NCBI GenBank assembly: GCA_963920765.1
Contig: OY987243.1
Location: 32,363,060 to 32,427,059 of the forward strand
Length of the DNA: 64,000 nucleotides
Reading direction: 5' to 3'
From: Ulota crispa
Lineage: Eukaryota > Streptophyta > Bryopsida > Orthotrichales > Orthotrichaceae
Both the position numbers and the translations under genes were made by a program. Shown here piece by piece: positions 1 through 63,436 of this stretch (the first letter of the stretch is position 1; each line of letters opens with the position of its first letter). The notes under the pieces are model-generated. The model worked only from the letters and a program-made list of their open reading frames with translations, was not told the DNA's origin and did no database searches.

Positions 1-707
1 GTGAAAAACTTGGCAGCTACCCTTCTGAAGGTGAAATTCCTAAGGAAAAAAGGCCATGTGGGTGGTGCTTTTCTAAATTCCTTATCCCACCTAAGTAAAG
101 TACATGCCAAAAAAGTTTCAAATCATTTGGAGTTGTATAACATATGGAAAAAAATTAGTAAGAAAAAAGAAGTAGACGATGATTCAAAACACAAAATTGT
201 TAAGAATTTAATTATGGAAATGAAAAATGCCAATCCTAATGTTCATTATGTTGTCATAAACAATATTCATCCTTTAGTTTTGTTTTTTTTCCAAAATGTT
301 GAAAATTGAGTAAAATAAAGGACTTCAAAGTTTATTTTGGAGTACAGAATCCATAACTACCCACAAACAAAAAATCCTCATAACTTTCATCTTGTTGATC
401 TAGACAGAATGATTCCAAGCTTCCTACATTCACATAAATCTCCTAAACCCATCTTTATTTTTTATTTTTTGAAAAAAATGGTTTTTAAAAATCTGCCTAG
501 GCTGCCTGCCAAACGTAAAAAAACAACATATTAGGGCATAACTTTTTACTCATAATTCCAAATGTCATGAAATTTAGTGCATATGAAAGATAAATTTGGT
601 TCCCACATTTTCTTAAAATTTCAGCCTAAAATATGAAAAGCTCCAATCACAAGTACCTGCCTGAAATTGCTATGTTTCTTAAAAAAGGGGGTCTGGTCCT
701 TTAGGGG
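1..707. mobile_element. TTAA-flanked non-autonomous element, right part, cut by window edge
   Basis: The right end is GGTCCTTTAGGGG followed by TTAA at 708-711, the inverted form of the CCCCTAAAGGACC terminus seen across the window. The sequence matches the element at 57974-58889 in reverse orientation along almost its whole length, so about 200 bases of the left side lie outside the window. The short ORF at the window start is a by-product of this repeat and is not a gene. TTAA duplication with CCC termini is known from the piggyBac superfamily; the assignment is inference because no transposase is present. Confidence 0.75.
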
Positions 708-721
708 TTAACTTTGGTTGA

Positions 722-1644
722 CCTCTAAATCCCTGAGTGTCTCCTTGGGGGACAAATGGGATTCTAGGCAGGTACCTACAGCCTCAATTTTTGTCTTGAT
801 TTTCTGAAACTTTTTCTTGAAGATAGGAAAACACATTAGCTTTTGGGGAATATAATTTTTATTCCAATCAATGCCCAAAAGCAAAAGTTATGCCTAGAAA
901 CACAAAATTTTATGCAAATTGGGCAGCAAAAAAACATTACAAAAACTTGATTTTTTTTTATTTTTGTTATTTTCCTCATTGGCTATAGTTTTGTCTACAT
1001 CTGAAGCTTTGATCCATTCCATTTGGACTAGTTTTGAGAAAGTTATGGACAATCTTGTTTTTTGGGTAGTTCAAGCATCTTCTTGAAAAAATAACTTATA
1101 AGCTTCAATTTTTAACGCAATTTTAACATTTTTTCAAAAAAATTGTTGGAAAGGATGAAGTTTGCTTGCTAGAACAATCTCACCATTTGGATTATTGAGT
1201 TTCAATTCCATTGCAAGGTTATCAACAATTTAAGTTTTTGTTCAATCTCATACCTTCTTCTACCTAATGTTTTTCTTAAGAATGAAAATTAAGTATTTTT
1301 TGTATTGATTTTTTTCCAAAGATTCTCAACTCAATTTCCCACCTTAAAAGAATAAACCTCAGAACTTGGTGGTGCAAAAAAAATAAGTCAAAAAAGTTCA
1401 AAGTCAAATAGTCTAGTCATGCAAGGTGCAAAAAAGTCTGTTTTTTACATTGAATGCAAATATCTTGCAATCTATGTAGTCAAAGTTTTTGAATTTTTGT
1501 TTCCACATTCTTATACTAGTCTAGTACAAGATCCTATGGTTAGATATGCAAAAAGACCAATTTAAAAACAAAAAATACTCTTTACAATAGAAATGACAAT
1601 TTTGAGTGTCTTTTGACAAAATAAAGGCCCTAGGGATTTAGGGG
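722..1644. mobile_element. TTAA-type element, 923 bp
   Basis: The left end reads CCTCTAAATCCCTGAG after a TTGA that has probably decayed from TTAA (718-721). The right end is AGGGATTTAGGGG followed by TTAA at 1645-1648. The inverted ends agree over CCYCTAAATCCCT. A reverse-orientation copy occupies 1750-3671. Flanking sequence from 1649 to about 1745 recurs at 4507-4595, where this element is absent. No coding capacity is seen. Confidence 0.7.
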
Positions 1645-2100
1645 TTAAACTTGCACTCTACTCTATTTTAAGGTGGAAATCAAACTAAAAATGAATTCAT
1701 CAAACCAACACACATGCACTCATACACACTAAGCTAAATGAGTAATGGTGACAGACCAAGGCCTTTATATTGTCAAGAAACACTCAAAACCTGCCATTTC
1801 TATGGCAAAGAGTAAAAAGTTTGAAAATTGCTCTTCTTGCATATCTAACCACATGATCTTGTACTAGACTAGTATAAGAATGTAGAGAAAGAAATCAAAA
1901 ACTTTGACCGCATAGAATTGCAAGATAACTTTGTTTAACTGTGTAAAAAACAAACTTTTTTGTACCTTGCATGATTAGATTACTTGACTTTGAACTTTCT
2001 AAACTTAAAATTTTTGCACCAAAAAGTTTGAAAGTTTAATTTTTTATGATGGAAAATTGAGTTGAAAATCTTTGGAAAAAAATTGAAACAAAAAATATTT

Positions 2101-2574
2101 CATTAGCAAAAAAATTAACCCTCCACAAGGCCCTTAAAATTTGACACTCTTAACATTTATTGAGCCTAGACCGGGTACATTAGAAGCATGTGAGAACTCG
2201 TGTGAAGTGTCTCTACCTTGTATGACTTTCCTTTTGTACATCACAAAAAGTATGAATAGAAAATGGCAATCTAGTACTATGTCACAATTTTTTAATTATT
2301 CTCCTACTATTGTACACAATCATAACTAAATGTAACCCTCACAAGTACTAGGCTGAAGATTTTAATATAGAGAAAAAAGACCATGGTAATATGTACATGT
2401 AATTGTGACACGCAATGAAAATTGGACATGCCCAATGTGAGCCATGATTGTTGTCAAAGGCATAGTAGGGTATAAGGAAATTTTGTATTCCCAAAATATA
2501 AATTAAAATAATTAAGGAGACACCTTGAAAGGGGTTGTTAGGGGCCTTGTGGAGGGCTCATGTTTTTGCTAATG
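2101..2574. mobile_element. Unclassified inverted-repeat element, family C copy 1
   Basis: The termini are CATTAGCAAAAA plus a subterminal CCCTCCACAAGGCCC, inverted at the right end. It interrupts the TTAA element around it. A second copy at 8836-9928 shares both ends and the interior in reverse orientation. An inner TTAA before CCCTCC belongs to the terminus and is not a target duplication. No convincing target duplication is visible, so the superfamily is not assigned. Confidence 0.65.
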
Positions 2575-2626
2575 AATTTTTATTCTTAAAAAAAATATTA
2601 GGTCGTAGAAGAAGGTATGAGATTGA

Positions 2627-2800
2627 CACTAGAAGAAACCCGTGTTTTTTATAACAAATTTTTTTGGACGTCCACTTGTTTTCATGTTACAATTGATGTT
2701 CAAACTAACATTTTGATGTTATGTTTGATGTCATTATTAACATGAAAACAAGTGGATGTCTAAAAAAATCTTTTATAAAAAACAAGGGTTTCTTCTAGTG
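2627..2800. mobile_element. CACTA-type (EnSpm) MITE, 174 bp
   Basis: The ends are inverted repeats starting CACTAGAAGAAACCC, extending about 28 bp inward. The 3-bp duplication TGA lies at 2624-2626 and 2801-2803. CACTA termini with a 3-bp duplication are the hallmark of the EnSpm/CACTA superfamily. It sits inside the TTAA element at 1750-3671, so it is younger than that element. Confidence 0.85.
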
Positions 2801-3191
2801 TGAACAAAAACTTAAATTGTAAATAGCTTTGCCATGGAATTGAAACACAATAATGCCAATGGTGAGATTGTTTTAAAAGGCAATCTTCACCCTTTTCAAC
2901 AATTTTTTTGAAAAAATGTTCAAATTGCATTCAAAAATGAAGTTTATAAGTTATTTTTTTAAGAAGATGCTTAAACTGCCCAAAAAACAAGATTGTTCAT
3001 ACCTTTCTCATAACTAGTCCAAATGGAATGAATAAAAGCTTAAGATTTAGACAAAAACTATAACCTATGAGAAAAAACAAATTAAAAAAAAAATCAAGTT
3101 TTTGTAAAAAAAATGTACTATCCAATCTCCTCAAATTTTTCCTTATTTGGACATAACTTTTTCTCCCAAGCATAGATTGGAATAAAAATTA

Positions 3192-3533
3192 GGGGAAATT
3201 ACAATTAGGGGCACAAAAATGAGAAATATTACAAATAGGGGCACAATTTCAAAATAATTATTAATAGGGGCACAATTTCAAAATAATTATTAATAGGGAC
3301 ACAATTTCAAGTCCCCTTTACTAAAATTTCCTTATTCAGGCTTGATTTGGAGAGGCCTTTTAAGTTTTTTGAAGGTTAGCTAACATTTAATGTGATATTA
3401 ACTAATGCCCAAACCAAAGTCTTACAAAAATTTACAAAAAAATTTGAAATTGTGCCCCTATTTGTAATTATTTTGAAATTATATCCCTATTTGTGATTGT
3501 TTTCATTTTTGTGCCCCTATTTGTAATTTCCCC
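3192..3533. mobile_element. Fold-back MITE family A copy 1 (GGGGAAATTAC ends, TA target)
   Basis: The ends GGGGAAATTAC and GTAATTTCCCC are flanked by TA on both sides. The arms contain repeats of AATAGGGGCACAA. The central part is a palindrome with GGCTTGATTTGGAGAGG that recurs, with other outer ends, at about 40113-40367 and 42900-43180. A second copy with these outer ends lies at 31421-31848. The TA duplication suggests a Tc1/mariner-like origin, but the termini match no family I know. Confidence 0.75.
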
Positions 3534-3675
3534 TAAAAAACATGTTCTCCAAAAGCTGATGTGTTTTTCTTTCTTTCAAAAAAGTTTCAAAAAATGAAAA
3601 CAAATATTGAGGCCATAGGTACTTGTGCAAAATCCCATTTGTCCTCCAAAGAGACAATTGTCCTTTAGGGGTTAA

Positions 3676-4209
3676 CCCCTAAGCACCCAATCGACCATTT
3701 TCTTATCACTTGCTGCCCAATTTTTTCAAGCTACTTGAGACAATTTTTTTATTTTAAAACCATTTTTCTATAATAGAAAATCAAGTCTACTTTCCCACTT
3801 AACTTGAATCATGTCAATCCAGGTTAAACTCCACCAAGGAAAACTTTTCAAAGACAAACACTTCAATATTTGCTAGTGTTGTAAAATTTACTATTTTGGG
3901 AAACAAATGATGTTTTCTCCTTTCAAGAAATTGTATTTTTGAAGTTTAGGATAGATTTTCAATTTTTGATCAATCGTACCAGATTTTGAAATCTATGAGT
4001 AAAATTTTTGGTGAATATGAAATGGTAAATGCTTCTAAATTCATTACATAAAAATCCAAAAAATTTATGAGTGTTTGACTGTATGGATAATTACTAAACA
4101 TTATGATTCTTATTTTCTCTTTTGAAAAAAACTTCATCAAAGTTACAGAAGTACCATTTTATAACACATCTATGTTTTGCCCTTACCCCCTGGCTTGGGC
4201 CTTTAGGGG
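3676..4209. mobile_element. Short TTAA-type element, 534 bp
   Basis: The left end is CCCCTAAGCACCC after TTAA at 3672-3675, and the right end is GGGCCTTTAGGGG before TTAA at 4210-4213. It shares its left TTAA with the right TTAA of the preceding element, so the two abut without a spacer. No coding region is seen. Confidence 0.7.
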
Positions 4210-4255
4210 TTAACATAGGTTAGGACTTGTATAAAAACTTTCAAACAATTCAATT

Positions 4256-4384
4256 AGCATCCATTTAGCATAAGTAAATTTATATATTATCCATTTAGCA
4301 TCCATTTAGCATCCATTTAGAATAAGCAAATCCATTTAGCAATCATTTAGTACCCATTTAGAATAGGTAAATCCATTTAGCATA
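4256..4384. repeat. Tandem repeat of CATTTAGCATC units
   Basis: An imperfect array of 10-18 bp units built on CATTTAGCATC and CATTTAGAATAAG. There is no coding potential. The following stretch to about 4850 is AT-rich with no gene that I can support. Within it, 4507-4595 duplicates sequence found at 1649-1745. Confidence 0.75.
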
Positions 4385-4849
4385 GTTTGAGATTTATTTT
4401 TAAAAAAGTCATTTTTTACTTTTTCACTTTTGCTTTTGTTCAAATTTTACTTTTACTAAAAACTTGTATTGTACTCTATTTCTAAATCTTTTTACTTTAA
4501 TGAAACTTGCACTCCACTCTATTTTTAAGTGGGAGTTGAACTAATGGATTTGTCAAACCGACACACACAGACGTGTACACGCACCCAAATCTTTTTGTAT
4601 AATAAGAAGAGTAAGATAAGATACTCTCCACTATAGTTAACTAGAGTTCATGATTAGGGTTTACTTTGATGAAGTAAACTCATGGACCAATAGTAGACTA
4701 GGACTTTTACTATATATCCTCTCTCCTAAATTGTATATGGTTGGAAACCTCCTTAAAATAAGATAACTTATGCCTTCTTTCTTTTTGCATACTTTGGTTA
4801 TATATCTCTTTCTAGCTTAATTTGTTGTGCTTTCTATTCCTAACACCTC

Positions 4850-5185
4850 CTTCATTCAATGCTTGGTGCAATGCTCATGCTAGATTGCTAGGTGACTCTG
4901 CTTAGTTCTATGCATAGTCACTGGTTCTCAAGCTTGTGGTGATACTTGAAGGTCAAACAAAATAGCATACAAGTATCAAGTGTATAGTATATGCAACTTG
5001 CACTTTCATGTCTTCAATCTGCATGGACTCGTCGCTTCTTACTTTGGAAATCTATTGGCTGAGCTCTAGCTTAAACATTGGTAAATGTTTTTTAGCACTA
5101 TCTCATGTTGGTAACTTTGCACTTTGCAGATTGTGTAGTATATTCTTCACAACCTTGATCTTAGACAAAAACCTCCACTGCGGCA
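4850..5185 (+). promoter_or_regulatory. Upstream region of IRG-like copy 1, conserved in paralogues
   Basis: This sequence is shared with 14430-14751 and 30790-31183, directly upstream of the other two IRG-like copies. A shared landmark is CAATGCTTGGTGCAATGCT. All three contain a TTGTGYAG (or close) acceptor-like site about 50-60 bases before the start region, which could end a 5' leader intron (inference). The conservation may reflect only duplication of the whole unit. Confidence 0.5.
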
Positions 5186-6290
5186 ATGGATAAGTTACCA
5201 TTGGCTTTATCAATTGGAACTGCCTTGATTGACGGTGTTGCAAAAGTGCTTGGTGAAGTGAGCTAGCAATGGCAACGAGAGCTTCATGATGGAGAAAGCA
5301 AAGTCGGCAAGCAATGTGAAGAAGCTGTTGTCTCTGCCGCTCGGGTTGCCGCTAGAGGGATTTTTGAACATGTCTTTAGACAGAATAACAAAGCCGCTCA
5401 GGAGCGTGAAGATGCTGCTGTGCAAAGTGAGGCCGCTACCAAATTGAGTGAAGGAATTGTTCTTCCGGAGGCTAATAAAGCAAAGATGGAGGTCGCTGCC
5501 AATTTGCGTGACAAAGCTATTCTTGCAAAGGCTAAGAAAGCCAAGGTAGCTCTTTGGCCCGGCATTAGTCCTGGCATGAGGCCAACTCCAGAGCAAATTC
5601 TTGCTGCAAAGGAGTGGATCCAGTACAACCCCAAGAAGATCCATTTTGCTATTTGTGGTGTTTCCTAAAGCGGAAAATCTACCCTCATCAACGCCTTCAG
5701 GGAATTGAACAGCAATAGCAACGGCATAGCACACGTTGGGGAACACAAGTGCGCACCTAAAATCACTTGCTACCCTGATCTTTGCAACGATATGCCGTTT
5801 TTGCGGTTCGTGTAGTACAACATCCCAATGCTGAACCCATTGCAATCTCTAGCACGCAAAATTTCAATGACCAGGGACTCTTTCTGTTTGATGTTATCAT
5901 TCTGGTATACGACCTGTGTTTCACAACAATTGACGTGGCTGTTGTTAAAAACTGCTTACGCTTCAACATCTACAAAATGTATGGTCCTCGTGAGTACAAT
6001 ACTGATGTCCACAAGCGTCATTGCGACATGGCCAAGAAATATGTGAAGGCCACATGCTTGGACTTCAACAAGCACATGCAAATCATGGCTGAAGAACCAA
6101 AACTTGATGCACGGGATCAACAGATGCTGTTGGGCCAATGCGTTTACATTGTGGAAGCCGAGATGCTATGATGTTTGTCAGAGATGACAAGTTATACAAG
6201 ATGGCTCAACAAAGCAATATTATTGGCAAGAAATTGTTGTTAGTTGATGGTATGAAAGCGGCAATCAGATTCCTTTGTGATAAGGATTAG
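5186..6290 (+). pseudogene. IRG-like GTPase, copy 1, broken
   Basis: The gene would encode a protein of about 375 residues: a charged Ala/Lys/Glu-rich N-terminal coiled coil (about residues 20-130), then a dynamin-like GTPase of the IRG (IIGP) type. This is the only copy that keeps an ATG (5186-5188). The phosphate-binding loop still encodes SGKSTLINA, but a stop codon stands just before it at 5666-5668. Other in-frame stops follow GEVS and replace the Trp of WYN. At least two frame changes occur downstream, and the segment with the G4 motif (VRSKAD in copy 2) is deleted. IRG GTPases act at membranes in innate immunity in animals; the role of plant relatives is not clear to me. The copy is dead as read. 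Confidence 0.75.
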
Positions 6291-6309
6291 GAGAGATCTT
6301 GGCATAATA

Positions 6310-6629
6310 AGGTAGTGTGCTTGAATACCACCCATGCATTAAAAACGGTCACCTCCCCAAGTGTACTCTGCTAGTACATGTTGTTAAGCTTTTCAACAAT
6401 TTACAGATAACATGCATTTGAGGAAGTGGATGATTTTATAGCCTTATGGCTTTTCCACTTCAAAATTTGATAGCTAATTCCACAAAGCTCCAAAAATTAT
6501 GAAAAAAGCTGGATAGATATCAATTCCTCTTGTCCTTTAAGGAGAGTTTACTGAAAAATATTTCAAGAAGAGTGACTCTCCAAAATTCAATTTCAGCCCT
6601 TAGGTGGACAATTTATGAGCACACTACCT
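6310..6629. mobile_element. AGGTAG family F MITE copy 1, 320 bp, TA target
   Basis: The ends AGGTAGTGTGCT and AGCACACTACCT are flanked by TA at 6308-6309 and 6630-6631. The paralogous site after IRG copy 2 (around 15915-15935) lacks the insertion, which confirms the boundaries. Other copies are at 44815-45141 and 60071-60396. Confidence 0.85.
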
Positions 6630-7100
6630 TATAGGATTTCTCTAATGCTTTCAAAACCCGCACATGGAGAATTGGAGACCCTTGATCTTTGCTTGTGGAT
6701 TCACTTTAGGACCTCACAAACATGGTCAAATTTGGCACATGTCATTGCATTCATACTTGTGCCATTCAATTGCTTACTTGTACCAAAGTTGCCACCCCGG
6801 TTGCCACATTGCATTGGAATCAAAACCAAGGATCAAGCAATTTTGTTGGTGGAATCAATGGAGAGCTAAGAATCAATTCTAGAACTTGTGGATTGAATTA
6901 TGTCAAAATGATGTAAAAATGTTAGAGGGGATATGAATATAGTATCAAATGCACTACTCTAATAAATTACATTGTTTCAATTTGATATCAATGACTTAAT
7001 TGTGACATGATATTTTTGAAGCATTCCATTTGTCAACTACTTCTCTTCATCTTCTCTTCTTCTCTTTCTCAACTCTTCTCTACTCATAAGGTAGGAACGC
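6630..7100. other. IRG-unit 3' flank
   Basis: This sequence is shared with the flank downstream of IRG copy 2 (15920-16030 and 16989-17280), so it belongs to the duplicated unit and not to a separate gene. Short ORFs here are not preserved in the paralogue. A lone AGGTAG start at about 7089 has no partner that I can find. Confidence 0.5.
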
Positions 7101-7433
7101 CCCTCAGGCCCGCTTTACATATGGAAGCCGGGCCATCTAATTGCGTCAAAGGTCACTAATCTAGTCCTCTGATTGGATAAAAAGCTGAAATCAGCCCCAA
7201 GGCCCTTACACCTAGTGACAAGGCCAATTTGGTGGAATTAATTTTTTATTCAACAAAGACAAGATCTGACATGGCCCAAGCTCTCTGAATTGGGTGCACC
7301 AAAAATGGGAGGCCAATTCTTGGCCTTGGGGCCAATGTCAAGTTTCATTATAAAAAAAAAATCATAAAATATTAAATTTTCTCCAATAGAATCCATTATA
7401 TCAAAAGCCCGGGGGCACAAGAGAGAAGCTAAG

Positions 7434-7515
7434 GGGATGGGGGATGAGGGGGATGAGGGGAATGAGAGGGATGAGAGGGATGGAGGGGGATGGAGGGGAT
7501 GGCATGGGGGGCATG
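7434..7515 (+). repeat. G-rich GGGGAT/GGGAT tract
   Basis: About 80 bases of imperfect GGGGATGAG repeats with many runs of three or more G, unusual in this AT-rich region. It could form G-quadruplexes on the + strand (inference from base composition). Confidence 0.75.
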
Positions 7516-7574
7516 GGGCATTTAGCTTGCTAAATGAGTTTACTAATTACTTGTGTAGGCTTGTATATTTTGTA

Positions 7575-7992
7575 CTCCCTCCATCCCAATATAAAGCTCC
7601 AAATGAGGCATAGTTCTTGTCCCACTAGAAAGCTCCATTTTGCTAATTTCAATTGTTGAGAAAGCGTTTGTCATGTCCAATGATCTCATGGGGGTAAGTT
7701 AAGCAAGTACAAAGCATTCCTCTCCTAACAAGCTTGGCCTTGCCCATATGAGGTACCATTGTTGCTACTAATTTTCAAATCATCAATCATGAGGAGCTAG
7801 CAACATGTACAAATATGGTATTTTTTGCATGGAATTTGGGTGTCAACAGCAATATAAAAATTGGAGATTTTTCAAGCATTTGGTAGGTGGAATATTGATT
7901 CTAGAATGCATTTGTTACTAGCATAATGACTAAAACTACAGTTAATCCCTCATGGAGAAGTTTTTTGGAGCTTTATAATAGGACAGAGGGAG
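7575..7992. mobile_element. Stowaway-like MITE, 418 bp
   Basis: The left end CTCCCTCCATCCCAATATAA and right end TATAATAGGACAGAGGGAG are inverted, flanked by TA at 7573-7574 and 7993-7994. The match continues to about 30 bp. CTCCCTCC(G/A)TCCCA termini with a TA target are diagnostic of Stowaway elements (mariner-like superfamily) in plants. The ORF near 7950-8285 overlaps its end and is not a gene. Confidence 0.92.
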
Positions 7993-9171
7993 TATCTATT
8001 TGCAAACCATTTTTTTCCTTCTATGCTTCTCATGAAGTTTTCAACCTTGCATATGTTGATATTTTGATTTTTTTTTCTATGATCTTTTATGCAAGATACT
8101 CTTGATGATCCATAACTCAAAGTATATATTCTGCTAGATACTATCTGCATAAAACTTGATTTATGGAAGAACAAATCAATATGCAAAAATATTATAAATG
8201 CTTTGTGGTTGATAAAAAGAAAATAATAAAGGCAATTGGTATAATATACTTTGATAAGGTAAACAAAGATAAGAGTTTGTTTCAAACTTCATGTTTAGGG
8301 TTCATGCACATTTTGGCAACGCCCCCCTTTGTCCAACTCTAGTTCTTGGTATCTATCATCATGTCATTGTTTCAAAATAAAAAATAAAAAATTTAATTAA
8401 TTAAAAAAAATTGTGACCTATTCTCTCTTTACATTGCAACAAGAAGCCACTATCCCCAAATGCTAGCTTTTTGAAAACAAGCCATGGCCCATAAGAGATT
8501 TTTGTCACAACTTCTCACCTCTAGTGTAAAGATGGGTAAACTTTATTGAATTGGCCTAACTCCTTGGCCTCAAGGCCTTTACATATGAGACAATTGGCCC
8601 CTACTATAATCTTATTTTAATTAGGAGTGGAGGCCAGCCTTAAGCAAAATAAGGGCTGAAATTTGAGGCAATCGGCCCCTAGCCAAATTGGCCCGGCCTC
8701 CATATGTAAAGCAGCCCTCAGTCTCCACAAGTGTCTCCATCCCCAAGACCTACTTGTGTCAGTGCTATTGTCAGAGATGTCAGTGATTGACTTTTAAAAC
8801 AAACAAGTTATGGGTGACAAAGGGATGATTTTGGGCATTAGAAAAGATATGAGCTCTTGGGAAGGCCGCTAAGAACCCCTCTCAAGGGGTCTCCTTAATT
8901 TTTTTAGTTTGTACTTTGGAGTAATAAAAATTCCTTACACCCTATTATGCCTTTGACTACAATCATGGCTCACATTGGTATGTCCAATTTTCATTGGGCG
9001 TCACAATTACATGTACATATTACCATGGTCCTTTTTCTCTATATTAAAATCTTTAACTTAGTAATTGTGAGGGTAACACTAGTTATGATTGTGTACAATA
9101 GTATGAGAATAATTAAGAAATTGTGACATAGTACTAGATTGCCATTTTCTATTCATGGTTTTTGTGATGTA

Positions 9172-9800
9172 CAATTGGGTACAGTGATCCTACAAAAAAA
9201 TTTGCAGTGAAATTTCAGCCAATAGTTCAGCAACTATAAGAAGTCATATCTTCCTCAAAAATTGTTCAATTTTGAAACCGCAAATTGCATTGGAGTCACA
9301 TAGAAGAGTACTACATGATTTGATAAAAAAAAACTGAAATTTTCCAAATGATAAAAAAAGTTTGGCCACTTCACATATTGTATCTCCCATCTAGTACCTC
9401 CACCTCTTGCAAAAATCATCGCTTGAATTGATTGGGCATACTTGTAATAAGAGTTTTTAGTTGCTCCATGGATACCTCATCCCATACTCTTTGAATGGTG
9501 TGTGTCATTTCTTGCTTGTTCTGTGACCATTGGTGGTGGCGTAGCTCAATCAAATTCAAGCGGTGATTTTGGCAAGAGGTGGAAGTACACTATATAGGAA
9601 GTAGCCCAATTTTTTTTTATCACTTATGAAATTTCAGATTTTTTTTAATATCAAATCATGTAGTACCCTTTAGTAGTATTCCAACACAATTTTTGGTTTC
9701 AAAAATGGACAATTTTTGAGGAAGTTATGGCCTTCAGAAGGTCCTGAAGTTGGTTGAAATTTCACTGCAAAAAAATTCGTAAGATTATTGTACCTGACTG
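9172..9800. mobile_element. Fold-back relic of a Tc1/mariner transposon, 629 bp
   Basis: TA flanks it at 9170-9171 and 9801-9802. The ends start CARTYRGGTACARTRATC and run into an inverted GCAGTGAAATTTC block. Both arms carry the 3' end of a transposase gene pointing inward. The minus arm (about 9380-9562) and the plus arm (about 9560-9600) each encode a version of the Tc1 C-terminal ARGGGTRW motif. Two 3' ends have thus been joined, and the rest of the element is gone. Comparison with 2101-2574 shows the empty site. Confidence 0.8.
9380..9562 (-). pseudogene. Tc1/mariner transposase C-terminal fragment
   Basis: The minus strand from 9562 reads RLNLIELRHHQWSQ, then IQRVWDEVSMEQLKTLI, then MPNQFKR. 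After a frame change it continues ARGGGTRWEIQ. This matches the C-terminus of Tc1-like transposases: the DLNPIE block with its catalytic acidic residue, the conserved Trp helix, the MPxR stretch and the GGHTxY motif. About 60 residues survive of an expected 340 or so. It cannot be functional. Confidence 0.8.
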
Positions 9801-10009
9801 TACAATAGGAAAGTCATACAAGGTAGAGACACTTCACACACGCTTTTAATGTACCTGGCCTAGGCTCAATAAACGTTAAGAGTGTTAGCTCTTAAGGGCC
9901 TTGTGGAGAGTTCATATTTTTTCTAATGGTGACTGGCATGACAATTCTGAGTGCCACATCTCAATATTTAAGAACTCATTTAGTTAGTATAATAAGCATA
10001 TGAGCACAC

Positions 10010-10432
10010 TAAAGACTTCACTAAGTGTCTACTTTGGCATCTCTACATGCATCTATTCATTTTCAATGATTTTGGATTTTGAAAAATATTTGTGAACAAA
10101 TTGTTAGACTACTTAGCAAACGTAATTAGGGTTACATAACTTACATCCATTAGACAAAGTCCATCCATGGAGGCTCATTAGATTAAGCAGTTTAGTATAT
10201 ATATACGTTTCTAAAACTTCTTATATCTTAGTCTATATTCTACTCATTTATCACATATTGCAAGATTACAGCACTTCTTCTTACACAAATGCTTACAATT
10301 GGAACTTCCAATTTCATGTTAATATTTTTAATTTCCTCTTCTTTATTTAACACCATTTTTTTCAAAGTTCATCAACTGGTTTTCCTACTCCAAAACCCTT
10401 AGTTTCATGCTTATGGGTGTTGCTACCTTGGT
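10010..10432. mobile_element. AGGTAG family H, diverged reverse copy
   Basis: The right end GGTGTTGCTACCT and the preceding CCAAAACCCTTAGTTTCATG match, in reverse, the left end of the element at 28390-28965. Patches such as ATTTGTGAACAAA also match. The interior is diverged and the left boundary is not clear. Confidence 0.4.
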
Positions 10433-10466
10433 GTAAGACCCTACGCCGGAAGACCCTACACCGGTT

Positions 10467-10543
10467 AGATTTCTGAAGAACAGAAAAGATTTCTGAAGAA
10501 CAGAAAAGATATCTGAAGAACAGAAAAGATTTCTGAAGAACAA
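10467..10543. repeat. 20-bp tandem repeat
   Basis: Nearly four copies of AGATTTCTGAAGAACAGAAA, abutting the remnant of a TTAA-type right end (about 10550-10622: GGTCCTTGAGGGG followed by TCAA). The ORF that spans it is a repeat artefact. Confidence 0.85.
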
Positions 10544-10631
10544 AAAAAACTTGTTCCAGGGATCAAATGACCCGAAATGTCAATTTGGAATGTCTTTGAG
10601 AAAAAAACGGGTTTGGTCCTTGAGGGGTCAA

Positions 10632-10842
10632 TGAGTTGAGTTATGACCAAGTTAAAGCTCACTTGCTTGTTTTCCACGCAAAGTTTGCAATAAATCAAAA
10701 TTTCATTGATAATGTTTCCTTTCGTGACAAATTAAGGCACTGTATTTGGTCGAAACCGTAATTAACTTTTATCTTGCTTATAGACGGCTTTCGCATACTT
10801 TTTTTGTACCTGTTACGCAATCAGCTCGAAAGTGAGATTTAA
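10632..10842 (+). repeat. IRG-unit 5' block L, copy 1 (split; continues 11797 to about 11990)
   Basis: Block L recurs at 19512, 46057, 58894 and 63437. Landmarks are TTTCCACGCAAAGTTTGC, GGTCGAAACCG, and, after the insertion, ACGGCCCTCTTTCATC. Block L lies upstream of IRG-like copies in the better preserved units. Here the TTAA element at 10843-11796 splits it, and the uninterrupted site is visible at 46253-46256. Confidence 0.7.
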
Positions 10843-11796
10843 CCCCTCAATGTCCGAGGGTGTTTTTCTGGTTTTTAGAAGGTAGTTTTGAAGTTTTTGA
10901 ATTGCCTTTATAAGATCATTATTAAACATCAAAACAAAATTGTAACTGTTGAATCTCAAATTTCAAAGTTTCTAGATGGCACTACCCAAAAAAAACCCAA
11001 AATGGTCGCACAGATTTCAAAATATTTGTGATTGAATGATGATGAGTATGGAATTTTTTGCTTTTTTTGGAACTGCCCAAAACTATTAATGTAAATTGGT
11101 GACTTTTGGATACAAAATTGGGAAACAATCACTTAGGATGTTTTAGTGTTTATTATTGTTACTTCAAAACCAATGGCCCCTCTTCCAAATCCATGACCAC
11201 AATTTCACAAATGAGCCTGCAATGCAACTGTCAAAATGCAACCGTCTAATACATAAAAAATTTTCAGCTTCAATTACTGACCACAAATCATTATGAATGA
11301 AAGAATTTTCAATGGTGAATAGATTCTAATTAGTATAACAAAGACATTCCAAGTGAAATTAGTCCAAAAGCACTTTTAGATTTTGTTAGATGTCAAAATT
11401 TCAGAAAAAAAGCCCTTATTGCCCAAGGGAGTGCCCAAGAGAAATCTTCACCTTCTGCTCAACTTGATGGCTGTCTTTTCAATGTGGCAACTTCTCATAG
11501 GCTTTGTGACACTATTCACAACACTATTCATGACACTATTCACAACACTATTCATGATACTATTCACAACAGTCACTATTCATGTTAAAAATGTATGCTT
11601 GTAGTTAACCTTCCACCAAAAACAAATGGAATAAGATATGGAGGAAGTTGAATTTGAATGGTGAAGCTAACTTTAGCATGCAACTTTTCCATAAAAAAAC
11701 CACAAAAAAATGAAATCTGTGCCTTCAACAAGGTTTCAAAGTTTTTTGAAATTTTTTGGACAGTCACCAAATTCTGGTGCCTTGGGCATTTAGGGG
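10843..11796. mobile_element. TTAA-type element, 954 bp, with empty site at 46253
   Basis: TTAA at 10839-10842 and 11797-11800 flanks CCCCTCAATGTCC and GGGCATTTAGGGG. Block L at 46057-46345 has the same flanks joined by a single TTAA (46253-46256). This shows a clean insertion with TTAA duplication. An internal 24-bp array of ACACTATTCAC/ACACTATTCAT units lies at about 11508-11590. Confidence 0.85.
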
Positions 11797-46052: not shown

Positions 46053-46056
46053 TTAA

Positions 46057-51529: not shown

Positions 51530-51847
51530 TTCAAATTCATTTCAAGCTTCAACATATTTCACTTCAAGATTATCGATATTTTGTTTATAATTAAATAAAA
51601 AAAGAACTATGAATTTTGAATACTTGATACAAGTCAAACATCCATATGGATGTAGTACCTAATTCAAAATCTATAACATCCATAATTTACATATCAACTC
51701 CAAAATTTATCTTCATATTACCCTTTTCTTCCATAATGGGATCCATACAGATCTTTGAAAATGGTGAGACCCTGTGACCGGATTAAGAAATTACAAAAAA
51801 GAAGGTTCCCCAAGTGGTTGAAATGACTGGCCTTCCGGATTTATTAA

Positions 51848-52250: not shown

Positions 52251-54151
52251 TTAACTGAAGGATCCAAGAGCCCAATATGGCCACAAGGGGTGCTTGGAGG
52301 TGTGAAAGTATACAAAAAAGGCATTTTTAGCTCAAACTTTGGTCTGCCACTCAAGTCCAAATGGAGTTGTTAGTTCAAGAAACTTTTTGATTGGCTTGTT
52401 GTTCCTTGAAGCACCTCCTTTGCTCTAGATTCTACTTAGAATATGGAAAATATTCTATTTTCAACAATTAGGAGGAGAATGTTTTTGGGCAAACAAAGGG
52501 TGCGGCTTAGAGAGCGGATAGGATGGGTGCTCTCATGTCTTGTATTGTATAAGGGAGAAGTTTGGTGATGTGTCACTTTTTTTTCTTCTTGATTTAGGCA
52601 AGGTTTTTACAGCTCTAAAGTAAGGAGTAGTGGAATCTAGCTACTTTGAGTGACCATATCTTTTGGAGTTTTTATCCATTTGTGGAGTTTTTTTTCCATC
52701 AAGTATAGCAAGACACAATCTCATGGGATCAACCATTAGGTAAATCTTTTTTTTGAGAAAATATTACAGGGAAGTCCAAAATCCATATTTTGAATTGTTG
52801 CCCAAATTGGAAAACATGAGATTCTCAATGGTGGGAATTTTGCAAATTTACTTGGATTTGAAATCAAATCAGTTTTAGACATTTGATTTATAGTTAGGTA
52901 TAGAATGATTGGTTTGGATTATGTAATTACTTGTTCAACTTTCCAAAAACTTAGGGAATGTGTTGAAGGTTTCATGTTGGAGGTATGCTGAATTTTCTTA
53001 GCAAGACACTTAGGGGTTAATACAATATGGACCCAATGCCTAACCCAAAGCGCTGAGGGTCACTGCAAATACATGGATCCTGCGTATTTGCAAGGACAAT
53101 TTTCATCCCTTTTGGCATTTAAGAAATTATGACACTTGCTACAAGTTTGACGCAAATTGTAACATTAACCCCTCAACGCCCAAGGGGTTTAAACCATGCC
53201 CCTCTAAATTTTATTTAGAAATGCTCAAAGTTTCTTCAAGATCCTTTTTTAGTGGTTATTATTATTATTTTTAAATTTTGATTGAAGTCTCATTCTAGCA
53301 TCAAAAGTCTGATTTTGAAAATGAAATAACATAATTTGTCTATTCAAGATTTTGTGCACTAAGGGTGTCCAGTGCAAATCTTCACTTTCTAGTGTTGAGA
53401 CTTTAGAGCTCTTGAAAATGAGCCTCAAGTACATTAGAACTTGAGAAAAAATTGCATTAGAAATTCAATTTAAAAAATGGTAGAATAGGTTTTTAGAAGC
53501 CATAAATTGATTGAGGTTATGCATGTTATACTTTACATACTTGTTTTTTTTTGTACCCTCAGTTTTAGATTGAGTTGCAAAAGAGGATTGAAAGTGACTT
53601 CAAATCACTTTCATAGTTTTAACACCCTTATGATCAAATTTTATAATCTCATAATTCACAAGTGATATTGTTATGTTATATTTTCCCATGTAATCTCCAA
53701 CATATCTACCTTGACTTTGTACAATCACCTATAAAACAAAGCAATCCAATGGATCACAAAATGCTGGCCTTTTGTTCACTTTCAAGCAAATTCTGAGATA
53801 CTCAAAAATATCATGGGCATTGAGGAATGAAGCTTCTAACATCCATGTGATATGAAAAGAAGACATGGATGCGTTTTCATTTAAGCCAAGCATGAGGATC
53901 TTGAGCAAAGACTTATACTTTTGATTTGAGATAAAAGCATTTTAAGTTAATTTTGTTTCTTTTTATAAAAACATCTACCTCTATAGAGGTGGTTGGCAAT
54001 CTTAGGATGTTTTATCTGCCATGATAGTTGTGCAGGCATGTAAAGATATCATATGATCAACTTGTCGTTATTTTATGAACACTTGTTTATTCTCTTATTT
54101 GCATCATTTGCAAAAATAAAGTAGAGAAGCTTATAATAATGCCAAGTGTTA

Positions 54152-54614: not shown

Positions 54615-54959
54615 GTGTTACTAACCAAGATCGAGCATTGAGGCCAATATATTGCCAATATATTCATGATGACATGATTGTAAATATATCAAAGTGACCA
54701 TGATTCTCTCAATGAAAGTCAACCCTTTCACCAGTGCCTTCGACAAATCATTCACTTGAACTCCATGCTGTCATTTCATATCAAAGAGTCTAGTTTTTTG
54801 GCAAAAGCTGTTAAAGTTCAAGAGTACTGGATTCTAAATTATATTGTAAAAAATGATAATATTTCATAGGAGACAAAGTTTATAATAAAGCAAAATTTGA
54901 AGTGTCTAAATAATCAACTTGAGACTATTGTGAAGGCGTATTCTTCTTTTAGCCCTTAA

Positions 54960-55876
54960 TCCCTAAAGCACTAACTAAGCTCAATTTTTTAGCAAAACCG
55001 CTTCAATACTATCATTTTTAGTACAATTATCAAATTTTAGAAAAAAACTTTTTTTGACAAACTTAGTTATAAGATCTTGTACTACACTAGTATAAAAAGA
55101 TGTGAAAAAAAATTCAAGAGTTTCCACCATGCAGATTGTTAGATGTATGAGTTTGAATTGACAAAAAGTCATTTTTTGTCTTTGCAAAAATTTGAGCAGC
55201 TGCACTTCACAAGGTCATAGAAAAGAAATTCCAAAATGGTTATAAATTTTTGGATTTGCTCTTCAAAGCAAGTTGGGTACACACTTGGAAATTTTCAAAT
55301 CATTTGGAATTGTAAAACACATGGAAAAAAATAGTAAATACAAATAAGTGAAGGATAATTCAAACCATTGATTGTTAAGAACTTAACTATAGAAATGAAA
55401 AATTCAATCCCAATTGTTGTAATTTAGTAATAAAAAATCTACATATTTAGTTTAGTTTAGTTTTTAATATTGAAAATTGAGTAAATCAATGGACTTCAAA
55501 GTTTATTTTAGAGTAGAGAATCCATAATTGCCCGCAAACAAAATCTCCTCATAACTTTCATCTCATTGTTGAAAATGGAATGATTTAAAGCTTCCCAAGT
55601 ATATATAAATCTAAAGAACCAATTTAAAATAATAATAAATCAAAAAATGTGATTTAAAAAAAAGTTGAATCGCTTCCTGCCTAGTAAAGAAAACTACATA
55701 TCATGCAATAATTTTTGAACCATGAAGCCAAAAGTTATGGAAAATGATGGGCCTGAAAGCTACTCCTTGGACACATCATGTGTGAAAATTTCAATGAAAA
55801 AAAAATGAAAACCCCATTAGTAATGAGCTGCCCAAAATTGCTATGTTGCCAAAAAAGATGTTTAGTGATTTAGGGG
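54960..55876. mobile_element. TTAA-type element, 917 bp, with empty site at 18383
   Basis: TTAA at 54956-54959 and 55877-55880. The ends are TCCCTAAAGCACTAA and TTAGTGATTTAGGGG. Repeat D copy 1 has the flanks joined at one TTAA (18383-18386). The right half resembles 1-707, while the left half resembles the family of 722-1644, so it may be a chimera. Confidence 0.88.
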
Positions 55877-56241
55877 TTAACAATCAAGGGGCTAAAACTT
55901 GACCTTTTTTTTAGTGTATGTGGTTGTGAGATATACTGAACATTGAGGGGTTAATTGTTAAGTGCACATTTTTGCAACATGCTTTCTTATGCACAAAAAT
56001 TTGCAATGCAGCATACCTAACATTGTCAATATGCAACATGATGCCTTTTGATGACATTTTGAACATCAATTCCATGCAATGTTTTAGACGATTGCAAGGT
56101 TTCAGACATTCAGACGTTGTTTGTTGTAATTTCAGGCAAGGTTGGAGATATTGTTTGATAATGAAACATAATCTTTTTCATTTGGCACTACTGTGAGTGA
56201 TGAATGATCTAATGCTATATACTATAAACACCATATTCGGA

Positions 56242-57162
56242 CCCGTAAAGGACCAAGTCATTTTTTCTGTGAAAATTACAGAAAACTGTCACTTTTGGAG
56301 AAGCAAGTACAATAGTAAGAAAAAAAGTTTTTTATAAGAATTCAACCGTAAGATCTTATAGTAGACTATAAGAGGTACACATGATAAAAAATTCAGCTCA
56401 ATCTACAAAAAAATGAGTGAGATATTTACATCTGAATTGTGGAAAAAAGTTTTTTTTGTTACTGCCCAGAAATTTTAGAACGCTTTGACCACTCTTAGAT
56501 CAAAAAAATTACTTTACACAAAGTTGCGGTTTATTTTTCCCATGTAGGAGATCAAGTTAGGTATGTGTGGGAGAATTTTCAAATCAATTGGAACTATACA
56601 ACACATGGAAAAAAATAGTAAGTAAAATGAAGTAGAGAATGAGTCAAAACACTAAATTGTTAAGAATTTAATTATAAAATTGAAAAAGAAAAATCCCAAT
56701 GGTCATAATGTTGTGATAAACAATCTACATTGTTTGGTTTTGATTTTTTTCCAAAATAATGAAAATTGAGTAAAATAAAGGACTTCAAAGTTTATTTTAG
56801 AGTAGAGAATCTAAAACTGCCCGCAAACAAAAATTCCGCATAACTTTCATCTCATTTATCAAAATTGAATGATTCAACGCTCCCCACGTCTATACAAGTC
56901 TAAAGAACCTATTTCAGATTTTGATTTGAAAAAAATGAAAAATTTGAAGAACTTTTTGGCTGCCTGGGGAGCAGCTTTTTCCAGATTTTCATGCATAACT
57001 TCTTCGTCAAATGTCAGAATGAAGAAAAAATTACATTCCCATGTAGATTTTTGAATTCCTCACTTTCAATAAAAATTTCAAAAAATCACGCAAAGTAGTT
57101 TAGCCATAGGTACATGCCCAAAATCCCAATTGTCCCCTAAGGGGACAATGGTCCTTTAGGGG
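56242..57162. mobile_element. TTAA-type element, about 921 bp
   Basis: The right end is GGTCCTTTAGGGG before TTAA (57163-57166). The left end is degenerate (CCCGTAAAGGACCAAG after TTCG). The interior carries the GAATGATTCAACGCTCCCC block shared with relatives. Sequence from 57167 to 57969 holds no gene; a lone right-end-like TTTAGGGGTTTAA stands near 57850. Confidence 0.75.
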
Positions 57163-57973
57163 TTAAATTGGGAATTTTGTAAAATTTTGGGATTAAGTTT
57201 ACCAACTTAAACTGACCAGTAGGGTTCAACTTGGGAACCTTGTTTTCCCAATTTAATGAATATGATGTTTATAGCATTAGTTTGTGATTTGAAGATTTTA
57301 CAGTGAAATTTGTTCCTTTAAAAGTTAAAACTTAATTTTTAAATTTTATAGTATAACTAAAGAATTGGTTCTTCACTTCATTTTAGAGCCCCACTTGACC
57401 TACTTCACACTATGGCTCACCAAGTCAAGAGGTTGCGGAGTTGTGTGGCCAAACTTTCTTCAGAGGCCAAAAACATGGTCTAAATATAGACAATATAATA
57501 TTGTTCTAAAAATCTTTGATTGCCCTTAATATGAAGCCTCCAAAGGCCAAGACGCCAATTCCAAAGTCCAAACTTTTGGCAACAAACTTTTACAGCCTCT
57601 CAACTTGAATAGTCATAATATAAACTATAAAGCCTCCAAAGGTCATATGGGACACTTCTAAAGTCCAAGATCATAACATTTATCAAGCCTTCCAAATATA
57701 GTGGCTGAGATCTTGTCAGATTATGATTATTTTATGACAAAAATTTGATGGCCTCTCAATCATAGTTTGGGTTTTCATATTTGCTTGACCCAAACTTCTT
57801 TGAGAGGCCATTGTTTTGGATGAAAAATGATGTCATTGAGAGTGAGGAATTTAGGGGTTTAACCTATAGGAAGACCAAAGTCTTGGTTTCTTGGAATCTC
57901 ATTGGTTGAAATTGACCGCCTCTTGATTTTTGGCCGTAATGTGAAGTGATCCTAAGTTTGGATTTTTCCTTAA

Positions 57974-58889
57974 CCCCCAAAGGACCAGACCCCCTTTTTC
58001 AGAAACATAGCAATTTTGGGCAGGTACTTGTGATTGGAGCTTTTCATATTTTAGGCTGAAATTTTAATACAATGTAGGGACAAGGTTTATCTTTCATATG
58101 CACTAAATTTCATGACATTTGGAATTATGATTAAAAAGTTATGCCCTAATATGTTGTTTTTTACTTTTGAGGGGTAGCTTGGGCATATTTTTAAAAATCA
58201 CTTTTTTCAAAATTAAAAAAAAAAATGGTTTAGGAAGTTTACGTGAATGTAGTAGGAAGCTTTGAATCATTCCGTTTGGATCAACAAGATGAAAGTTATG
58301 AGGATTTTCTGTTTGCAGTCAATTATGGATTCTCTACTCCAAAATAAACTTTGAAGTCCTTTATTTTACTCAATTTTCAGCATTTTGGAAAAAAAACAAA
58401 ACCAAAGGATGAATATTGTTTATGACAACGTCATGACCATTGGGATTGGCATTTTTCATTTCCATACTTAAATTCTTAACAATTTGGTGTTTTGAATCAT
58501 TCTCTACTTCTTTTTACTTATTAATTTATTTTCATATGTTATGCAACTCCAAATGATTTGAAACTTTTTTGACATGTACATTACTGAAGCGGAATAGGGA
58601 ATTTAGAGAAGCACCACCCACATGGCCTTTTTTTTGTTACAAATTTCACCTTTTGAAGGGTAGCTGCCCAGTTTTTCACAAGACGTTTTTGAATATTCAA
58701 ACCATTCTGACTTCCAATCCACGTGGTGGAAAACTCTGAATTTTTTTCCGCATCTTCTATAACCATTCTTTTACAAGATCCTACGGTCACATATGCATAA
58801 AAATGTTTTTGTTTTCAAATTTGATTGATGCTCTAAAAATGACAGTTTTGAAGAGTTTTTGGTGAAAACTTTGCTTGGTCCTTTAGAAG
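57974..58889. mobile_element. TTAA-type element, 916 bp
   Basis: TTAA at 57970-57973 and 58890-58893. The ends are CCCCCAAAGGACCAGACC and TTGGTCCTTTAGAAG. It is the reverse-orientation relative of 1-707. The minus ORF at 58581-58790 matches the ORF at the window start because both are the same repeat. Confidence 0.85.
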
Positions 58890-59356
58890 TTAAAATCTAA
58901 TCAGTCCAATTACTCGACGAAGATGAAAAGTTTGGCGCTACAGATTCTGCTATTCCAACTACGAAGGCTACAAATTTCGATGTTCCAATAGAAAAAAGAG
59001 GAGAGAGAAAATAAGAGAAAGCTGAGCGGAAATTCAATGAGTTACGTCAAAATAAAGCGCACCTGGTAACTTTCCACGCACAGTTTGCAGAGATTATTAT
59101 TTCATTCATATTGTATCTATTTATGATAAACCAAGGCGTTACTTTAGGTCGATACCGTAAAGAAATTCCTAAATAACTTCTTGACGGCTTACGTACTTTC
59201 AAACCGACCCGACGCGCAGTTAATTTGGCGGTGAAACTTAATAAGGTGCACGGCCCGCTTTCATATTTTGCAGAACCGCCTTGTCTTTCTCAGTACACGA
59301 ACCCAGGGTGAAAAACTCCAGATCTCTCACTTGAGGTAAAACCCTGACTCGAAGTA

Positions 59357-59765: not shown

Positions 59766-60070
59766 TAGGATTCCGGAAATATTTGAGAATTTTTGGAAGA
59801 TTTCCTTCAATTCCTGCATTGAACCGGTTTATCAACCAGTTTATCAAGGAGCTCTTTTGGTTAATTTCTCTATTTCATACTATAAATTTAAAAAAAACTA
59901 AATTTTTTTTATTGGTTTTTAGCCGATGCTTATGAATTGCAAACATTTTTCTCATTTCAATTGGCTAGCTTTGAACTAGCGGTCGGTTCTTCCTAGACCT
60001 TGACTCAAAGACCAAATTTGGGTATTTTATTTCAATTTGTAAGTTAGTTTGATTTACAGTCCCCCAAATA

Positions 60071-60396
60071 AGGTAATCTGCTCATATTCTGCTCATGCTC
60101 TAAAATTGCTCACCTCCCCAAATGTACCCTACAAGTACATGTCTTATTCATAGCCTTTTAACAATGTACATAGGACAAACATTTAAGAGGTGGGCAATTT
60201 TAGAGCACCTATGACCTTTCCACTTCAAAATTTCATAACTAATTTCACAAAGCTCCATAAAATATGAAAACACTTGGGATAGATGCCAATTCCTCTTGTC
60301 TTTGAAGGAAAATTTACTGAAAATTATTTCAAAAAGTTTCACCTCCTCAAATTTTGATTTCAACCCTTAGATGAATGATTTATGAGCACACTACCT
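60071..60396. mobile_element. AGGTAG family F MITE, copy 3, 326 bp
   Basis: The ends AGGTAATCTGCTC and GAGCACACTACCT. TA at 60069-60070 and 60397-60398. The uninterrupted paralogous site lies at about 63770-63785. The minus ORF at 60148-60363 is within it. Confidence 0.82.
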
Positions 60397-60717
60397 TAGA
60401 AGAACTTGAATGCTAAGCTTGGTGATCAAGGAAACAAAATTTAATCAGCTATAAAAATGGGGGCAGATTTACACTTATATTATATTTTGTAAAATATTTG
60501 GGGCTTTCCCACGGCTCAGTTTATTGCACAGAAGTTACATCAATGTGAGGCCAAGGCCGAAAAGCTCAGACGTTTATCCCAACAAGGGTAATAGTGATAA
60601 TTTGCCCCCTATTATTTTTGTTATTCAATTGTATTTTATTCTAGGATCTTAGATTAGGATCTTAGATTAAAACAAGGTCTTTGAATCCAAATATGAATTC
60701 AAAATTTTCAAATTTAA

Positions 60718-61671
60718 CCCCTAAAGGACCATTGTCCCTTTGGGGGACAAATGGAATTTTGGGCATGTACTTATAGTTAAATTACTTTTTGTGAGTTTTT
60801 GAAACTTTTATTGAAGATGTGGGATTCAAAGATTTACGTGGGCATCTAATTTTTTCTTCATTTTGACATTTATTGAAGAAGTTATGCATGAATAACTCAA
60901 TCATATGGGACAATTGGGCAGCCAAAAAAAATACTTTAAAAAAAAAAAAATATTGAAACTGGTTCTTTAGATTTTTATATATGTGGGAAGCTTTGAATCA
61001 TTGAATTCTAATAGATGAGATGAAAGTTATGAAAAGTTTTAGTTTGCAAGTAGGTATGGGACTCCCAAACCTCCATTCCTTTTCCCCCTCGTAGAACTTG
61101 TTGCTTTACTTTTTTGAGATCTTTGTGTATTATTTTGTTTTTTTATTCTTTTTTTTCCAAGTTGTAGTAGACTAAGATTCCTTAATTTTCACCATTTGGA
61201 TCAAAGAAAATTCAAATTTCTAAATTTTACATAAATCCTCCAATTTTGCCTAGTGTATTTGTAAAATTCTAGACCTTCCGGCATTGCAGGATTTTATAAA
61301 CTAAGTATGATCCACATGTCCAATTCATTTGAAAATTCTCCCACAGATACCTAACTTGGTTTCAGACATGAGAAAAAAAATCCTCAACTTTGCATAGAGT
61401 AATTTTTTTGACACATCAATGGTCAAAAGTTTCTAAAAATTTTGGGCAGTAAAGAAAAAAACTTTTTTCTTCACTTTGGATGTAAATATCTCACTCCTCA
61501 ACATTTAGATTGAGCTGATTTTTTCCCAAGAAGTACCTCCCATAGTCTAGGCCAAGATCCTATGGTTGGATTTTTGAAAAAAAAAAAAAATCTTTTTCTA
61601 TTCTACTCACTCCCCCAAAAGTGGCAATTTTCACTGAAATTCACAAAAAAAAGGCCGCGGTCCTTTAGGGG
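60718..61671. mobile_element. TTAA-type element, 954 bp
   Basis: TTAA at 60714-60717 and 61672-61675. The ends are CCCCTAAAGGACC and its exact inverse. It aligns along its length with 29337-30267. It contains the internal box AAGATCCTATGGTTGGAT. Confidence 0.9.
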
Positions 61672-62034
61672 TTAAATGTAATGTCATTTTTCAAATAAAA
61701 GGAGACTAATCCCCTATACCCGCTTACAACTACTGCATGAGAATAATTTCTTTTTACAATATCATATGCTTTTTGTTTGATGAGTGTCCTTGTTTGATTG
61801 GAAACTTCTAGTCATGATTTATTCTTGTGTCCCACTAAAGGTCCTTGCATTTGTCATTGTTATGTTATAATATTGTTTTCCATCATCAATCCTTTTTGTT
61901 ATGTACATACCATGGTCCATGGTGCACTTGAGTAGTTCACACAAAGTAGAGACACTTGTGTAGGTACTTTAGCTATGCTTCTCCTACCTAAACAAATAGG
62001 GTGGTTTGTCAAGGTTGGGAGGCCTTCTCTTGAG

Positions 62035-62310
62035 CTCATTTTTCCTCTAATGTTGGAAAGGTGAGAAACCCAACTTTCTAGAAACATAAGGCTCTTCTCA
62101 AGCAAAGCTTGCATAAAACATTAACATTCAAAACCACACAAGCATGGAAAACTAAAGGTTTTCCACGTATGACTCATTCAATCATTATAATATGTCACCT
62201 CCAACGGTAAATCTAGTGAAAGCTTTGATACATTCAAACAAACAAAATATCCTTTGCATTTGTACGGTTAGATTATTCAAATTGAGTCTGTATTTGATTG
62301 AACAACACAA
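62035..62310. mobile_element. Fragment of a GACCACAC-type TTAA element
   Basis: TTTCTAGAAACATAAGGCTC, AAAACCACACAAGCATG and CACCTCCAACGGTA match 63085-63300. The outer ends are missing. The full element at 62315 follows directly. 61676-62034 holds nothing that I can assign. Confidence 0.6.
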
Positions 62311-62314
62311 TTAA

Positions 62315-63432
62315 CCTTTTAAGGACCACGTGACCATATTTTGGTTGCTGGGAGTGGTTTTTGGCCTGTAGGTTGATATTGCTCAATAATTTTGGAATTT
62401 GGGTTGGAAGAACGCATGTGATCACAAGAATTTTGCATCCATCCAAAAAAATAACAATGCAATCAGGTATGTGAGTTGATAAATAATGGTGTTTATACGG
62501 CGTGGCATCAAAATACATATCCAATTTTTGTCAAAGACAGATCAAAGCAACAACACAATACATCAAGTATGCAAGAAGAATGTCAAAAACGCGTTATTCA
62601 TTAAATTGGGAAAAAGTGACATTTTGGGACTTTTAGATTTTATGTTTTTTGAAGAGTATTCATTGAATACTCTTCAAAAAACATAAAATCTAAAAGTCCC
62701 AAAATGTCACTTTTTCCCAATTTAATGAATAACGCGTTCAAATTTCAATTGCACAATTCTAAAAAAAATCAAATTGCTTAAAAGATACTCTTGTATTGTT
62801 TTCCTATACAGTAGTAGTATAATTGTAGTATTTGAAGATCTACCAAAACGGTGTTGTTATTTTGGTTTTAAAATTCATCATTCAACATGTAAGGCCTATT
62901 CTTGATTGTTTTCACCAATTGGATTTTTCAGAATAAGTATCAAAGTTCTTGTAGAACTATTTTAGGGTAGCAAAGAAAGTGGGTTTTTTGACCCTTTTTG
63001 TCCACTTAGCTACACCTTGTGATTGCAATTTTTGTCTATTTTGTGTGAAACTAGTCTTATTGTAAAAGGTGGAAAACCCTGCTTTCTAGAAATGTAAGTC
63101 TCTTTTCAATCAAAGCTTGCATGAAGCATTAACATTCAAAACCACACAAGCATGAAACACTATAGATTTTCCGCATACGATTCACTCAATTATTATAGTG
63201 TTTCACCTTCAACGGTAGATCTAGTTGAAATTTTGGTGCTTTATAGTAAACAAGGTGTACTTCCCATTCATACGATTGGATTATGAAAATGGGTCCATAT
63301 TTGAGTCAATTGCACATCTAAGCTTACATCTCATTTTGTGAAAATGGGTGTGGTCCTTAAAGGGTTAAACTTACTGCCCTTGCTTTTAGTGGGTTTCATG
63401 AAAATATGTGTGGTCCAGTGGTCCTTAAAGGG
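62315..63432. mobile_element. TTAA-type element, GACCACAC subfamily, with palindrome insertion and duplicated end
   Basis: TTAA at 62311-62314 and 63433-63436. The ends are CCTTTTAAGGACCACG and GTGGTCCTTAAAGGG. It aligns in reverse with 45145-46052. A second right-end copy (TGGTCCTTAAAGGG, then TTAA at 63365-63368) lies 68 bases before the true end. Subtracting this and the 151-bp palindrome leaves about 900 bp. Confidence 0.78.
62588..62738. repeat. Perfect 151-bp palindrome
   Basis: Two 75-bp arms, AACGCGTTATTCATTAAATT inward to GAAGAGTATTCA, are exact inverses around one central T (62663). It is absent from the related element at 45145-46052. TCAAA stands on both sides and may be a target duplication. 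Confidence 0.95.
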
Positions 63433-63436
63433 TTAA

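Follow-up and report, generated by a model that had tools for sequence, protein, structure and literature searches.

TTAA-flanked, probably piggyBac-type non-autonomous transposons in a 64-kb stretch of contig OY987243.1

The 64,000-nucleotide stretch of contig OY987243.1 analysed here (the window) carries a dense set of short elements that lie between TTAA flanks, have paired ends of which CCCCTAAAGGACC is typical, contain no coding domain and, in several cases, have an uninterrupted paralogous site elsewhere in the window. We consider it likely that these are non-autonomous DNA transposons of the piggyBac type, resembling miniature inverted-repeat transposable elements (MITEs) and moved in trans by a transposase encoded elsewhere. 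Such an enzyme would recognise ends of about 13 bases, excise the element and join it to a TTAA target at points four bases apart on the two strands, and every copy would thereby end up between TTAA flanks. We infer the enzyme, its piggyBac nature and the cut-and-paste movement from the pattern of ends and sites, which supports elements that would work like piggyBac, membership of the superfamily itself being unproven.

The ends form a well-defined signal. The 17-base motif TTAACCCCTAAAGGACC has 26 matches in the window at three or fewer mismatches, where 100 shuffles gave 0.19 on average and 2 at most. The core CCCTAAAGGACC (up to one mismatch) was selected without TTAA, so that TTAA was not built into the search, and TTAA precedes 10 of its 12 matches, one of the ten with an additional A. 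TTGA and TTCGGA stand before the remaining two. Pairing of ends gave 13 two-ended elements of 233-1050 bp, with TTAA at 25 of the 26 flanks (the exception is CTAA, left of 19857) and, measured against TTAA, CC directly at the start of 21 of the 26 ends, or of 22 when 16035 is read past two additional A at its left end. Because this list was made partly with TTAA, the core figure of 10/12 is fairer than the flank figure of 25/26. The count becomes 16 with element 722-1644, which has TTGA on its left, 56242-57162, which has lost its left TTAA, and 1-707, truncated by the window start, and single ends exist beyond these; candidates at 53169 and 43603 have no real right end and were excluded from the counts. 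The original prediction, made from the sequence letters, of about 17 TTAA-flanked elements is therefore a fair one, and its claims of TTAA target specificity and of short, CC-type inverted termini are borne out by the same counts. The set thus shows the TTAA target duplication and the short inverted ends starting with CC[C/T] (12-19 bp) of piggyBac, together with the size, noncoding interior, inverted ends, several copies and target duplication of MITEs.

A TTAACC-rich spacer or chance likeness, with no transposition at all, would be the simplest alternative. In keeping with it, TTAACC by itself is not enriched in the window (50 occurrences against 46.3 expected), nor is TTAAGG by itself; it is contradicted by the complete end motif, by the way the ends pair and by the uninterrupted sites at paralogous positions, and its probability is negligible. 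TTAA as such is depleted across the window, with 444 occurrences against 713.6 expected from the dinucleotide content.

The insertion sites provide the second line of evidence. Four elements had been claimed to have an empty paralogous site with a single TTAA, and we joined the flanks of each through one TTAA and aligned them to the named paralogues. All four pairs (10843/46253, 16035/6750, 19857/63603 and 54960/18383) align through the junction; a single TTAA stands at three of the sites (46253-46256, 63603-63606 and 18383-18386), and the fourth, 6750, reads TTCA, so that the claim holds in full for three. The elements concerned, given here and below with the range of the listed feature in parentheses and with the strand entered as '.' for every feature, are 10843-11796 (10839-11800; 954 bp), 16035-16988 (16031-16992; 954 bp), in which additional A bases separate TTAA from CCC at either end, 19857-20089 (19853-20093; 233 bp) and 54960-55876 (54956-55880; 917 bp). 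For the last of these, homology to the 18383 paralogue spans several hundred bases on each side and is interrupted in the paralogue by one unrelated insert. Elements 10843 and 19857 occupy the same aligned position (10839-10842, and 19853-19856, where CTAA is read) in two copies of one repeat, the third, unoccupied copy of which has TTAA at 59238-59241; because no interior alignment was found between them, they look like separate insertions into one favoured site. The 1050-bp element 62315-63364 (62311-63368) is nested within an older member of its family, and its joined flanks match 45342-45154.

Under a strict spanning rule, joined flanks match elsewhere across the junction for 4 of the 13 elements; among 400 TTAA pairs used as a control, 7 pass the same rule, the match reported being the pair's own flank in 6 of the 7. 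The 54960 pair fails this rule, and its support comes from the direct alignments to the 18383 paralogue. Element 57974-58889 (57970-58893; 916 bp) has a weak partner at 19500-19579 (80 bp, 72.5% identity, no TTAA). The paralogous sites are compatible with both a never-occupied and a precisely excised state.

As TTAA is palindromic, duplication of TA or TTA would yield the same string, and the length of the target therefore needs to be considered. Tc1/mariner or PIF/Harbinger MITEs with a two- or three-base target inside a preferred TTAA would fit in this respect, since a TA duplication with ACCCC...GGGGT ends reads identically, and TA and TAA/TTA are the targets given for these superfamilies (PMC10004981; here and below, papers are cited for the excerpts drawn on). 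Such elements would have no fixed outer base, and the outer T is kept at 10 of the 12 core ends. A rough control is available within the window, where 16 of 40 AGGTAG motifs, some of which are surely chance occurrences, have TA before them; the next outer base is mixed (T in 6, A in 5, G in 3, C in 2), unlike that of the TTAA ends, which makes the constant outer T of TTAA informative. We therefore favour a four-base target over a two- or three-base one and regard a Tc1/mariner or PIF/Harbinger origin as very unlikely. The AGGTAG motif also ends a set of TA-flanked, MITE-like repeats (6306-6631, 44812-45132 and 60068-60398; 29010-29333 and 44512-44810), which are probably Tc1/mariner-like and one of which adjoins the TTAA element at 29337. 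Among the boundaries of self-alignments in the window, 44 of 270 fall at TTAA, against a mean of 20.1 and a maximum of 37 in 500 shifts.

Movement in trans is suggested by the coding content. Pfam searches, in which stops were read as X, covered all six frames of 1-15000, 16001-21003, 28001-33000 and 39501-63999, one strand of 21001-25502 (minus) and of 25501-28502 (plus), three open reading frames (ORFs) within 33001-39500 and one within 15001-16000. No transposase was found in the stretches so scanned, the elements included, as had been predicted, and the six-frame search over the elements found no coding domain in them; the elements would therefore need to be moved in trans. Two sub-threshold matches, to Nlp36 and CBM_4_9, were taken as chance. 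Rfam at its gathering threshold gave no match in the window, no tRNA was found there, and the exact end motif had no match in viral contigs.

Comparison with described systems points to piggyBac. Its ends are described as 12-19 bp long and carrying CC[C/T]T, with duplication of TTAA (PMC2872659, which lists coral ends); a 4-bp duplication and CC..GG termini are likewise given (PMC10045372), and its mechanism involves hairpin ends, TTAA overhangs and seamless repair (PMC7351741). Like the piggyBac superfamily, including coral AmiPB (PMC2872659) and the T. ni piggyBac (PMC7351741), the window elements have a TTAA target and short CC-type inverted ends; unlike it, they have no transposase gene, do not exceed 1050 bp and come from a host that is probably a plant. 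With the coral CMITE families, which are piggyBac/TTAA MITEs, they share a noncoding content, TTAA flanks and insertion of element into element, but the coral elements are about 100 bp long with a conserved interior, whereas those of the window measure 233-1050 bp and have several unrelated interiors (PMC2872659).

We compared 33 window ends with 14 coral ends, all of the latter from one paper (PMC2872659), leaving out AmiPB6, for which no ends are listed, CMITE family I because of its ambiguous letters, and any right end that duplicates the left one. The left end at 10843 matches the coral CMITE III end at 13 of 14 positions, and the right end at 63364 matches the right end of AmiPB2 at 12 of 13. 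Joint column shuffles did as well in 2 of 5000 cases on the best match and in 1 of 5000 on the mean. Another or an unnamed TTAA-specific enzyme, for example of Sola or PIF-like ancestry, might have reached CC ends and TTAA independently, and it would sit well with the failure to find any enzyme in the stretches scanned and with elements of 233, 403, 534, about 930 and 954 bp that have common ends and no internal alignment. Yet two end types are nearer to coral piggyBac-type ends than shuffles are, and a new enzyme is unnecessary; we judge this alternative unlikely. Kolobok-type elements, another TTAA-target superfamily, would likewise account for the flanks and are listed for one chlorophyte and for rhodophytes (PMC9587614), but their termini are described there as 5'-RR...YY-3', at odds with the CC directly at most of the window ends; we give them hardly any weight.

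Several observations weigh against a piggyBac-type origin. The scanned stretches hold neither a transposase nor a relic of one, and 5 of the 26 ends do not start directly with CC. Site 6750, the partner of 16035-16988, reads TTCA, the nested-site partner 45154-45342 reads CTAA, and 9 of the 13 elements have no spanning match under the strict rule. The coral set comes from a single paper found by our own search. Finally, GGGA ranks slightly above TTAA in a scan of boundaries over all 256 tetramers (5.94 against 5.40), an excess that may come from other repeats.

The elements regarded here as piggyBac-type differ in anatomy. Two kinds of end, X and Y, occur in family A, whose members measure about 930 bp: a small GTCCCCTTAGGGGAC-type palindrome lies immediately inside the end motif at the X end, and a T tract marks the Y end. 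The closest pair in this family is 89% identical and the remaining long alignments are at about 69-84%, and most copies are therefore old. Family A includes the copy truncated by the window start (1-711), whose right TTAA is at 708-711 and which is 89% identical to 58679-57970 through the TTAA inclusive, the decayed 923-bp element 722-1644 (718-1648; left TTGA, right TTAA, ends CCTCTAAATCCCT and CCCCTAAATCCCT), the 931-bp element 29337-30267 (29333-30271) and the 921-bp element 56242-57162 (56242-57166). A single TTAA can serve adjoining elements, as at 3672-3675, where the left TTAA of the 534-bp element 3676-4209 (3672-4213) is common to a family-A end at 3671. Interiors align between the two 233-bp elements, 43274-43506 (43270-43510) being a relative of 19857-20089 with a 206-column alignment at 73.8% to 19854-20055, and between 62315 and the 908-bp family-B element 45145-46052 (45141-46056), which contains the counterpart of the nested site, 45154-45342. 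For the elements at 3676, 10843, 16035 and 51848, the last being the 403-bp element 51848-52250 (51844-52254), self-alignment of the window gave no match between their interiors and those of other elements. Element 49249-49976 (49245-49980) is palindromic, with two X-type ends and 97% self-complementarity, and the 954-bp element 60718-61671 (60714-61675) has perfect 13-base ends. Within 62315-63364 lies a 151-bp palindrome (62588-62738, 99% symmetric), which resembles an insertion because the related 45145-46052 aligns on either side of it and lacks it.

The window holds several other features. Three copies (12281-12606, 31858-32177 and 40634-40949) make up a fold-back family, each about 320 bp long with arms inverted along its length. 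Two diverged copies of one region, 4846-6304 and 14422-15912, are 72% identical in DNA; an interferon-inducible-type (IIGP) GTPase scores above the Pfam cutoff at 15067-15885, and IIGP falls below it at about 5.6-5.8 kb in the related copy. A multi-exon F-box/leucine-rich repeat (LRR) gene occupies roughly 33900-38600 of the minus strand; one exon matches F-box_5 below the cutoff (21.1 against 25.5 bits), another matches solved F-box/LRR proteins, the best being F-box/LRR-repeat protein 2, and we presume that the gene resembles plant FBL3. The plant-like character claimed in the original prediction is based on this gene and is plausible; a non-flowering land plant would be our guess for the host. 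The open stretches at 21842-25314 on the minus strand have no Pfam match; they may resemble a hAT-derived gene.

The piggyBac family is well known in animals and, to our knowledge, has seldom been described in detail in plants. In rice, the elements Wuneng and Microuli offer a parallel. By description rather than by sequence, they resemble those of the window in being noncoding elements with TTAA target duplications (PMC2872659). The fern Ceratopteris has repeats under the same class name in a land plant (1230 copies, 122,417 bp), known by the class label alone, the excerpt describing neither ends nor TTAA (PMC6890710). PiggyBac is also named as a MITE superfamily of angiosperms (PMC10004981), as a class II superfamily of plants (PMC10794571) and as one of the superfamilies present in all groups studied (PMC4438587). 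A review of land plants gives six superfamilies with terminal inverted repeats (PMC9033089), and a MITE survey of 207 plant genomes gives five superfamilies and one special group, its main text containing neither 'TTAA' nor 'piggyBac' (PMC12550479); several window elements are longer than the 50-800 bp MITE range of that survey. Five window end sequences, sought as letters in the literature searched, had no match. The rarity in plants that the original prediction offered as novelty is thus weakened by printed PiggyBac annotations and by Wuneng and Microuli: the kind is already known from plant piggyBac annotations, and what is new is the window's dense set with several unrelated interiors.

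A bolder reading, which we regard as doubtful, is that a land-plant lineage has a long-lived TTAA-specific system in which one end signal moves several unrelated cargos, through an unrecognised plant piggyBac or an independent TTAA enzyme, and which five-superfamily surveys of plant MITEs have missed. Should the host be a plant, the window elements show that a plant chromosome can carry TTAA-type transposons at high density, and MITE pipelines built on five superfamilies could misfile them. The piggyBac tools in use are of insect origin. An autonomous partner of the window elements would give a plant-derived counterpart to those piggyBac tools, which have already been tried in plants (PMC10794571).

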